DNA of 64,000 nucleotides from Amylolactobacillus amylophilus DSM 20533 = JCM 1125 (GTDB taxonomy: Bacteria > Bacillota > Bacilli > Lactobacillales > Lactobacillaceae): NCBI RefSeq assembly GCF_001936335.1, contig NZ_CP018888.1, positions 868,001 to 932,000 of the forward strand. Reading direction: 5' to 3'. Position 1 is the stretch's first letter. The number at the start of each line of letters is the position of its first letter. The position numbers and the translations under genes are program-made. A model generated the notes under the pieces. That model saw only the letters and a program-made list of their open reading frames with translations. It searched no databases and was not told the origin of the DNA. This document shows positions 48,248 to 63,015 of this stretch, piece after piece.

Positions 48248-48253
48248 TATAAA

Positions 48254-48281
48254 AAAAGACAGCCGTGAGGCTGCCTTTTTT
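48254..48281 (+). terminator. Rho-independent terminator of the exporter operon
   Basis: AAAGaCAGCC-gtga-GGCTGcCTTTTTT, seven bases after the permease stop. Confidence 0.85.
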
Positions 48282-48309: not shown

Positions 48310-48775
48310 TTGTAAATGTGCTCCACCTCGCAACTTCCTCCGCCTAACTTCTTGTTTTACCAATTACGTTGTAATTGATAGCCAAGTTCGTTAGTGCTCA
48401 GAAGCTGGGCGCTCGGTGTCGCAACTTGTAATTGTGCTCCTGGACATAACTTTCTCCGTCTAGTTTCTTGCACTTCAAACTACTGCGTAGTTTTTGAGCA
48501 AGTTCACTAGTACTCGAAAGCTAACCATGTCCTGTCGCAACTTGTAATTGTGCTCCACCTCGCAACTTCCTCCGCCTAACTTCTTGTCTTACCAATTACG
48601 ATGTAATTGATAGCCAAGTTCGTTAGTGCTCAGAAGCTGGGCGCTCGGTGTCGCAACTTGTAAATGTGCTCCAGGACATAACTTTCTCCGTCTAGTTTCT
48701 TGCACTTCAAACTGCTGCGTAGTTTTTGAGCAAGTTCACTAGTACTCGAAAGCTAACCATGTCCTGTCGCAACAT
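48310..48775 (-). repeat. Tandem array of four dyad-symmetric repeat units (A-B-A-B)
   Basis: Two units of about 116 bases alternate: A (48310-48425), B (48426-48541), A (48542-48656) and B (48657-48773). The 232-base A-B pair is repeated almost perfectly. Each unit folds as nested stems. In A: CTAAC/GTTAG, CTTG/CAAG, AATTAC/GTAATT. In B: CTAGT/ACTAG, CTTGC/GCAAG, AAACTAC/GTAGTTT. The bases differ but the architecture is the same. The array is 30 bases beyond the stop of the reverse asp23 gene. No protein frame is conserved. Confidence 0.9.
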
Positions 48776-48803: not shown

Positions 48804-49457
48804 CTAGCGAATCTGTTCCGCACGGCTTCTGCTCTTATCAACGGCACGCTTTGTTGCCTCAGTTGCTTGTTCAGTCTTGTCTGAGATGAACTCGCCAGTC
48901 TTTTCTGTTGCGCGACTCAATTTATCCTGCACTGTGTCGCTTTGCTTCTCGTGTTCTTCTCTAGTCATCACATCGACCACATTTACATTTAGTTCCACCA
49001 CATCCAGGTTCGTCATTTGGTGAACCTCTCTTTGAATAATGTCCTTCATCTTATCATAGATTTCTGGAATCCGTTTCTGGTACTCTGCAACGATTTCTAG
49101 GTCAACGGCAACTTGTTTCTTGCCAACTTCCACATCGATACCGCTTGTCGTTTGATCCGTGTTTACCAGTTTGCTAGTAATATTAGAGAAGAAGCCGCCA
49201 TCAACACTAAGCAGACCATCAACTTTATCGAGTGCAATACCAACAATCTTCTGGATTACTTGATCATCAAAAGTTAAATCACCCCGAATCTGGCTCTTTG
49301 AGCTATCTTTAGTCTGATTTACATCCTGTGTGCTCAAACTTCCTGAATCTTTCTTGCCCGTTTGCGTGGAATCGATTTGGCCAGTCTCTGTTCGCACCTG
49401 CTCGTTGATATCTTTTGATGTTAATTGGTCCTTGCTTTTTGACATTGTTTTATCCAT
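48804..49457 (-). CDS. asp23: Asp23/Gls24-family envelope stress protein
   Basis: The 217-residue protein has a polar, low-complexity N-terminal 60 residues, then the Asp23 domain: FDDQVIQKIVGIALDKVDGLLSV and, later, VAVDLEIVAEYQKRIPEIYD. The C-terminus is a charged helix with repeated Glu/Lys (SRATEKTGEFISDKTEQAT). Asp23 coats the inner membrane face when anchored by AmaP and rises in alkaline and cell-wall stress. Its start overlaps the stop of the DUF2273 gene. Confidence 0.9.
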   Translation of the reverse strand: MDKTMSKSKDQLTSKDINEQVRTETGQIDSTQTGKKDSGSLSTQDVNQTKDSSKSQIRGDLTFDDQVIQKIVGIALDKVDGLLSVDGGFFSNITSKLVNTDQTTSGIDVEVGKKQVAVDLEIVAEYQKRIPEIYDKMKDIIQREVHQMTNLDVVELNVNVVDVMTREEHEKQSDTVQDKLSRATEKTGEFISDKTEQATEATKRAVDKSRSRAEQIR

Positions 49458-61834: not shown

Positions 61835-61973
61835 TAATATTTTGCAGAAGTGCTTTGACTCAGTGGCAAAAGTAACTCATAATTGAGACTGTGAAATCAC
61901 CGAAATGGCATTGCTTGCCTGTCTTAAATGGAGTACATTATTAGTTGTGAAACACAAGTTTCACGGGAGAAAA

Positions 61974-62693
61974 ATGAAACCTGAAGAATTCAAACAATAT
62001 CTAGCAGATCGGGGAGTTGAGCTGACAGACCAAAAGGTCACTCAATTCCAGCAATACTTTAAATTCCTGGTAGAGACGAACGAACACGTCAATCTCACCG
62101 CCATTACAGCTGAAGAGGACGTGTACTTGAAGCACTTTCTTGACTCGATTCTACCTCTATTGGAACTACCAGCAGCATTTGTGCAAAACGCACGGGTAAT
62201 CGACATTGGTGCTGGGGCTGGCTTTCCATCGCTACCAATCAAGATTCTCCGTCCGGACTTAACCGTGACAATCGTGGACTCACTCAACAAAAGAATTAAG
62301 TTCTTAGGTGATCTAGTGATTATGCTCAGCCTGGACAACGTGGAACTCGTCCACGGACGTGCCGAGGATGTGGGGCAGGATCGTCGCTACCGGGAGAAAT
62401 ACGACTTAGTGACGGCGCGCGCAGTTGCGCGGCTGAATACGCTCAGTGAATATTGCCTGCCGTTTGCTAAAGTTGGTGGTGCGTTCGTGGCCCTAAAGGG
62501 GCCACGTGGTGAGTCTGAGTTACAGGATTCAGCAACGGCGATTGCTAAATTGGGTGGTAAGTTGCGCACCAATCAGGTTGTGACTTTACCAGAGACCGCT
62601 GAACAGAGAATGTTGACGGTAATCGATAAGGTCAAGGCGACACCAAAGAAATATCCCCGCCAAGCAGGGATGCCTAACAAGAAACCATTATAA
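61974..62693 (+). CDS. rsmG: 16S rRNA (guanine527-N7)-methyltransferase
   Basis: The 239-residue enzyme (GidB) methylates G527 of 16S rRNA in the decoding region. The SAM motif is VIDIGAGAGFPSLPIKI (about 77-93), and the family features HFLDSILPLL and DLVTARAVARLNTL are present. The ATG at 61974 has GGGAG six bases before it. The position before noc and parA is the usual origin-proximal order. Its stop codon overlaps the first base of the repeat array at 62692. Confidence 0.96.
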   Translation: MKPEEFKQYLADRGVELTDQKVTQFQQYFKFLVETNEHVNLTAITAEEDVYLKHFLDSILPLLELPAAFVQNARVIDIGAGAGFPSLPIKILRPDLTVTIVDSLNKRIKFLGDLVIMLSLDNVELVHGRAEDVGQDRRYREKYDLVTARAVARLNTLSEYCLPFAKVGGAFVALKGPRGESELQDSATAIAKLGGKLRTNQVVTLPETAEQRMLTVIDKVKATPKKYPRQAGMPNKKPL

Positions 62694-62979
62694 ACAAGTA
62701 GCGCCACAAGCTGGTAAGGCCCTGAGCACTTACGAAGGCAATAAAGCGTGAAACGCTGCGATTGGCCAGTAAGGTGAAGGGGACTAGCTTGTGAAACACA
62801 ATTAAACAAGTAGCGCCACAAGCTGGTAAGGCCCTGAGCACTTACGAAGGCAATAAAGCGTGAAACGCTGCGATTGGCCAGTAAGGTGGAGGGGACTAGC
62901 TTGTGAAACACAATTAAACAAGTAGCGCCACAAGCTGGTAAGGCCCTGAGCACTTACGAAGACAATGAAGCGTGAAACT
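62692..62979 (+). repeat. Tandem dyad-symmetric repeat units 3' of rsmG
   Basis: Two full units of 112 bases (from 62692 and 62804) and a partial third (from 62916) are nearly identical. Each has an outer pair CACAAGCT/AGCTTGTG, then CTTAC/GTAAG, GGCAAT/ATTGGCC and a central AGCG-tgaaa-CGCT. CTGAGCACTTACGAA matches the complement of the A unit at 48.3 kb (there CTGAGCACTAACGAA), so this is the same family in the opposite map orientation. Open reverse frames inside it are not genes. Confidence 0.9.
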
Positions 62980-63015
62980 AGAATAACAATGGATTTAGAG
63001 GAGTAATTGATAAAT

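Follow-up and report, generated by a model that had tools for sequence, protein, structure and literature searches.

The window analysed here is a stretch of 64,000 nucleotides from the genome of Amylolactobacillus amylophilus. On its minus strand, the Asp23 gene is followed by four repeat units that abut one another at 116-nt spacing. The original prediction described four units of about 116 bases alternating in two forms, A-B-A-B. Each unit is exactly 116 nt long, and together they fill positions 48310–48773; in the direction of transcription, the order of the forms is B-A-B-A. The array lies on the same strand as asp23, as had been read from the sequence, and the stop codon of asp23 ends 30 nt before the first unit. 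Beyond the array, and ahead of a convergent ABC permease ORF, lies a hairpin with T-runs on both strands, which is likely the shared terminator of asp23 and the permease gene. With a stop codon on one side and this hairpin on the other, the array sits between the end of the asp23 reading frame and a likely terminator; judged by this position, it would be transcribed together with asp23. Promoter-like sites around the window array occur at chance level (1 found, 1.2 expected). Since the units have no spacers, the array is not a CRISPR in that sense, in line with the first reading of the locus. A second array in the window, behind rsmG, has units that match the same covariance model (see below); the unit at 62.7 kb, which had been proposed as a relative of A and B, is therefore a member of the same repeat family.

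Table 1. Genes, repeat units and other features of the two arrays in the 64-kb window (transcript order within each array; CM, covariance model).
Feature	Position	Strand	Evidence
asp23	48804..49457	-	ORF; Pfam PF03780 (Asp23) E 2.4e-29
Unit 1, form B	48658..48773	-	CM R1 120.2 bits, full length; fold z -4.5
Unit 2, form A	48542..48657	-	CM R1 113.1 bits; fold z -5.3
Unit 3, form B	48426..48541	-	CM R1 118.7 bits; fold z -5.1
Unit 4, form A	48310..48425	-	CM R1 113.1 bits; fold z -5.3
Hairpin with T-runs on both strands	48250..48281	.	+ form from scan; - form from sequence reading
rsmG (gidB), upstream of second array	61905..62693	+	ORF; Pfam GidB E 4.8e-49
Second array, unit 1, 112 nt, 4 nt after rsmG stop codon	62698..62809	+	CM R1 match; tandem repeat
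Second array, unit 2	62810..62921	+	CM R1 match; tandem repeat
Second array, third copy, truncated, 5' part only	62922..62983	+	sequence; tandem repeat called to 62978

The two A units differ from each other at 3 positions, as do the two B units, while A and B differ in 39–40 alignment columns. When these differences were placed on the 34 consensus pairs of the predicted structure, 20 pairs were identical in both forms, 9 had changed on both sides with pairing kept, and 1 had changed on one side; the remaining 4 are not standard pairs in one form or in both. Compensatory change between A and B, which had been proposed from a few stems (AATTAC/GTAATT and CTAAC/GTTAG in A, AAACTAC/GTAGTTT and CTAGT/ACTAG in B, all present on the minus strand), is thus real at nine pairs and does not extend to all 34. 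Folding of the reverse-strand transcript, suggested as a check, returned a single long rod for each unit, with minimum free energies of −39.3 to −43 kcal/mol (z values in Table 1). The plus strands of the two units that were also folded gave about −29 and −28 kcal/mol (z −1.9 and −2.8).

A covariance model built from 15 units of this genome (R1) was used for a genome-wide search, and found 40 matches in the 1.61-Mb genome, the second window array included. R1 matches were present in 18 of 60 genomes searched, counting the genome itself, with up to 60 matches in one relative. A broader model (R2) matched 210 of 397 genomes of the same family, in 23 of 40 genera, again with the own genome included; as nine candidates were scored per genome, these match numbers are a minimum and misses are possible. 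Far fewer carriers were found in wider samples: 8 of 299 genomes of the class (own included) and 1 of 299 of the phylum, this being the own genome. Matches outside the lactobacillus family score lower with R2 (30–65 bits), and their membership is held less firmly. The array is one of many dispersed copies of a repeat family with a unit of about 115 nt, and the possibility that the repeat is confined to this strain is set aside by the 210 carriers.

Carriers could be named for 80 loci, of 119 in all, from a pattern scan whose pattern favours one stem sequence; they include at least species of Levilactobacillus, Lacticaseibacillus, Lapidilactobacillus, Liquorilactobacillus, Secundilactobacillus and Lactiplantibacillus. 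After two contigs (L072 and L094) of a metagenome-assembled genome that seems to be genome G001 had been left out, R2 confirmed 76 of the 78 loci taken on. The two loci with a pattern hit and no R2 match were one in Lapidilactobacillus (L118) and one in Yokenella (L121); the Yokenella hit was taken as chance.

A search of the window against Rfam 15 gave no match at the gathering threshold, and at a lax threshold the array drew four sub-threshold matches, the best with an E value of 1.7. Among 20 loci with family members, the threshold was reached by rRNAs alone, in one locus. Nothing was found in viral contigs searched with an exact pattern, nor in plasmids and phages searched by blastn with one Levilactobacillus unit; with a family so variable, a single unit or pattern is a weak probe for such sequences. 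Searches of the open-access PubMed Central literature brought up no publication recognised as describing this repeat family. We conclude that this is a new family of structured interspersed repeats, larger than first noted, and that the kind itself is already known.

Several known systems resemble it in part, as far as the published descriptions consulted go. BOX elements of Streptococcus pneumoniae are likewise small interspersed repeats with a predicted RNA structure and modular repeated parts; they are over-represented between convergent genes, and some have been shown to be transcribed (PMC3049150). By that description they consist of A, B and C modules, whereas the family here is one rod repeated whole, mostly starting at a stop codon. 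The repeats bcr1–bcr18 of the Bacillus cereus group are 100–400 bp long and interspersed; about half of the copies lie in transcripts, UTRs included, some have a conserved RNA structure, and they show features of mobile elements (PMC3446304, PMC6542083). In these accounts bcr1 is restricted to the B. cereus group, unlike the present family, which is found mainly in the lactobacillus family, and mobility of bcr elements is tied to a TTTAT motif, while the 5' junctions inspected here show no conspicuous motif of this kind. GTAG REPs, associated with RAYT transposases, are also extragenic palindromes, whose ends are reported to supply often the TAG stop codon of the preceding gene (PMC3733652), and in this they offer a precedent. 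Their stems are given as 5–13 bp, compared with 34 consensus pairs in a unit of about 115 nt here, where GTAG occurs in some copies only. A survey of 40 bacterial genomes for repeated sequences able to fold defined stem-loop families (PMC2267715), which are the same kind of object as the family here. From its descriptions, Lac-1 of L. johnsonii (231 nt), the sole Lactobacillus family in its table, is genic, and Efa-1 of E. faecalis is a double hairpin; both are thereby set apart.

The element is predicted to fold as one long rod; its internal loops are conserved, and its pairing is kept through compensatory change. In 142 distinct copies, aligned to a model that holds this structure and so biased towards it, 95.1% of the 4806 cells in the 34 pairs were standard pairs, against 64.8% in shuffles and 36.6–45.1% when partners were slid. 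The same copies held 1518 two-sided changes, against 389 in shuffles and 205–343 with the partner slid, and since the copies are related, shuffle and binomial values overstate the significance. Two smaller sets, aligned in the same biased manner, behaved alike: 68 distinct copies had 94.2% standard pairs and 705 two-sided changes (64.3% and 188 in shuffles), and 90 distinct copies from named records had 94.2% and 733 (70.6% and 190 in shuffles). A structure-free MAFFT alignment (A1) already contained two-sided change at 25 of the 34 pairs. A lack of covariation among many copies, the outcome that would count against the proposed stems, was checked for and did not appear; covariation is strong, and selection on structure, first suggested by four units, is supported well beyond them.

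The paired columns also carry information about the strand. With three special pairs excluded, G-U occupied 233 cells and A-C 67. Pair 13 is kept as G.U in 217 of 236 copies, with G-A in 16 and A-U in 2. Both findings favour the sense strand as the one that folds, and its fold was the lower in 156 of 161 single elements. G-T is better tolerated than A-C in single-stranded DNA as well, so the excess of G-U indicates the strand more firmly than it indicates RNA. The internal loops are conserved: among 68 copies, A29 and A131 are present in all 68, G27 in 66 and the bulged A33 in 67.

Next, the elements were mapped relative to genes. A total of 244 matches (the best 150 of 167 and 94 of 95) resolved into 194 distinct elements or arrays; one odd match (L076:4785-5021) was left out. 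Gene calls were mechanical ORFs, and an upstream ORF was counted if it had at least 80 aa and lay on the 5' side of the element. The upstream ORF was in the sense direction for 155 of 189 elements and antisense for 34 (p 1e-19). In 91 of the 146 sense cases with both flanks known, the element starts within 15 nt of the stop codon; if elements were spread evenly over these spacers, 16.1 would be expected, and the maximum in 20000 simulations was 30. When similar upstream genes were grouped and one element was kept for each group, 130 of 164 were in sense and 81 of 124 started within 15 nt of the stop codon, against 15.1 expected. At the other end, 6 of 148 elements stop within 15 nt of the next gene, in a count that still includes duplicate elements. 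Placement behind a stop codon is a family-wide property.

In most genomes the copies begin with AGAGYG. The stop codon overlaps the first bases of the element in 23 copies that read TAG-A-G, where the element's own AG completes the stop codon, and in 7 that read TAA-GA-G; some copies begin with GTAG and supply a TAG stop (L016, L021). Where a stop codon lies no more than 15 nt from an element, it is TAG in 46 cases, TAA in 42 and TGA in 2, while the long open frames of the same loci end in TAA 415 times, TAG 224 times and TGA 104 times. The excess of TAG is due to the overlap between stop codon and element start. TGA is nearly absent near elements (2/90 against 104/743 in long open frames), and it is also rare at distances of 3–15 nt, where stop codon and element do not overlap (1/57).

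A total of 103 elements start no more than 40 nt behind a stop codon. None of them has a terminator between stop codon and element, and 53 have one within 250 nt downstream (8 in shuffled sequences); for the other 50, no downstream terminator was found under the same rule. Among 48 elements farther off, a terminator lies between stop codon and element in 29 (3 in shuffled) and downstream in 8 (2 in shuffled). The element thus lies mostly in sense and directly behind stop codons, and otherwise often behind a predicted intrinsic terminator; some copies lie hundreds of bases from any stop codon. At one locus (L241), the element starts 11 nt behind a tRNA-Arg gene. A weak match was also seen between 23S and 5S rRNA, 6 nt behind the 3' end of the 23S (L280:1501-1621), in a genome from another family of Bacilli. 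The 14 upstream genes scanned in the present genome are unrelated: they encode Asp23, a multicopper oxidase, a DUF956 protein, an ABC ATPase, two oxidoreductases, RsmG, an S1-domain protein, an RNA methyltransferase, MurT, two PTS subunits, an ABC permease and a sulfatase-family enzyme. Because the target genes examined are unrelated, insertion fits better than a regulon.

Comparison of orthologous gene ends shows that the element is present at some and absent from others. A permease gene was found in all 35 Levilactobacillus genomes, and among the 30 loci fetched, the element signature occurs within 900 nt behind the permease stop codon in 4 and is absent in 26. Three of the four elements begin as TAG-A-GTG; the fourth starts 11 nt on, behind an apparent partial copy. 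The stop codon is at the same protein position (265 codons) in all 4 loci with the element and in 23 of the 26 without. No precise empty site was found among these loci, as the Levilactobacillus spacers are too diverged.

Arrays are rearranged as well. Among the permease loci, two pairs from sister species (L246/L248 and L247/L248) have segments of the array in exchanged order, with downstream sequence 96–97% identical, so the shuffling of unlike units seen as A-B-A-B is not peculiar to this window. Truncated copies collect at the 3' side of arrays. In a scan that took in 189 of 197 elements, with duplicates still counted, 24 of 189 arrays had a truncated 5' part of a unit in the 100 nt downstream (1 in shuffled sequences) and 3 had a 3' part upstream (0 in shuffled), so decayed copies lie on the side far from the stop codon.

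In two Levilactobacillus loci (L082:7117-7600 and L132:1842-2110), the array continues with further copies whose 3' arm and end are retained (GGTTAAGCGCA...GGAGCACGTTT or similar) and whose 5' half is different; no partner for the 3' arm was seen in that half. Other Levilactobacillus loci (e.g. L141, L089 and L074) have a second similar tail just 3' of the rod, about GGCYGCCAGNNCCGGGATA...GGCGAGAGCAAGT, which may be an additional domain that the element has in this genus. In two other genomes (L040, L057 and L228–L231; L045, L207, L212 and L213), a similar tail with a terminator-like hairpin follows many of the copies inspected.

How the element moves and what maintains its structure can be explained in more than one way. 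It could be purely selfish DNA of the MITE type, with covariation produced by template-switch repair that matches the arms of a palindrome rather than by selection on RNA. The two unit ends pair with each other, as terminal inverted repeats of a MITE do, the arms evolve fast and in step, array segments have been swapped, and the dispersal and the presence or absence at gene ends are element-like. In a check for target-site duplication, the 3' end of the element proved ill-defined in most of the lineages inspected, and no exact empty site turned up. Correction of one arm by the other should, however, erase mismatches, yet the G.U of pair 13, A29, A131 and the bulged A33 are kept, which argues against palindrome repair alone, and an excess of G-U over A-C is not predicted by correction at the DNA level. 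We therefore regard this explanation as unlikely. A further possibility is that each copy is an independent small RNA gene, driven by its own promoter and located near a gene end by chance. The 34 elements behind an antisense gene and the copies far from any stop codon would fit such genes, but the chance level of promoter-like sites around the window array does not favour them, and the strong tie to stop codons and terminators is not expected of independent genes, which makes this account quite improbable.

One candidate for a mobilising enzyme is the Y1 (HUH) transposase proposed to cut single-stranded hairpins of GTAG REPs (PMC3733652). Copies that begin with GTAG, and the 23 in which the element's AG completes the stop codon, are what a REP-type element would show; most copies, however, begin with AGAGYG, and the unit is far longer than a REP. 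No Y1_Tnp domain (PF01797) was found in the present genome, and across the 60 genomes, with carriage called by R1, it occurs in 6 of the 18 carriers and in 15 of the 42 genomes without the element, or in 8 of 20 and 13 of 40 once two carriers detected by R2 only (G040 and G046, both with the gene) are added. A REP-type origin is accordingly very improbable. A resident reverse transcriptase (RVT_1) is likewise absent from this genome, and reverse transcriptases occur in 3 of 18 carriers against 17 of 42 others. Both enzymes were rejected as drivers, being absent here and not associated with carriage, so that the REP-type route and the resident reverse transcriptase route are both unsupported.

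The explanation we favour, and consider probable, is that the array is a tandem expansion of a dispersed non-coding element of about 115 nt that spreads at the 3' ends of genes and perhaps serves there as a cis-acting 3'-UTR module. The element would spread by insertion or copying at gene 3' ends with the help of an enzyme, and tandem copies would then arise through slippage or unequal exchange. In the asp23 mRNA, the rods between stop codon and terminator may, more tentatively, act in cis as a 3'-UTR module, either by way of a protein that recognises the conserved loops or by blocking decay in the 3'-to-5' direction. A role of the 3' UTR in mRNA stability or protein binding is our best guess from the sequences; the elements behind antisense genes are unexplained by a pure 3'-UTR role. 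A more far-reaching idea, decidedly unlikely at present, is that the element is a bacterial analogue of a SINE: a structured RNA that some host machinery, of a sort not yet known for such use, would insert at RNA 3' ends in the same orientation as the host transcript. The sites would then be the stop codon at the terminating ribosome, the U-tract of a terminator and, in single cases, the 3' ends of a tRNA and of 23S rRNA.

The placement at stop codons raises the question of how the element reaches, or is retained at, the point where a reading frame ends. As many as 60 matches occur in a single genome, and over half of the genomes sampled from the lactobacillus family have matches; a structured repeat on this scale, missing from Rfam 15, would amount to an extensive unannotated component of lactobacillus 3' UTRs.
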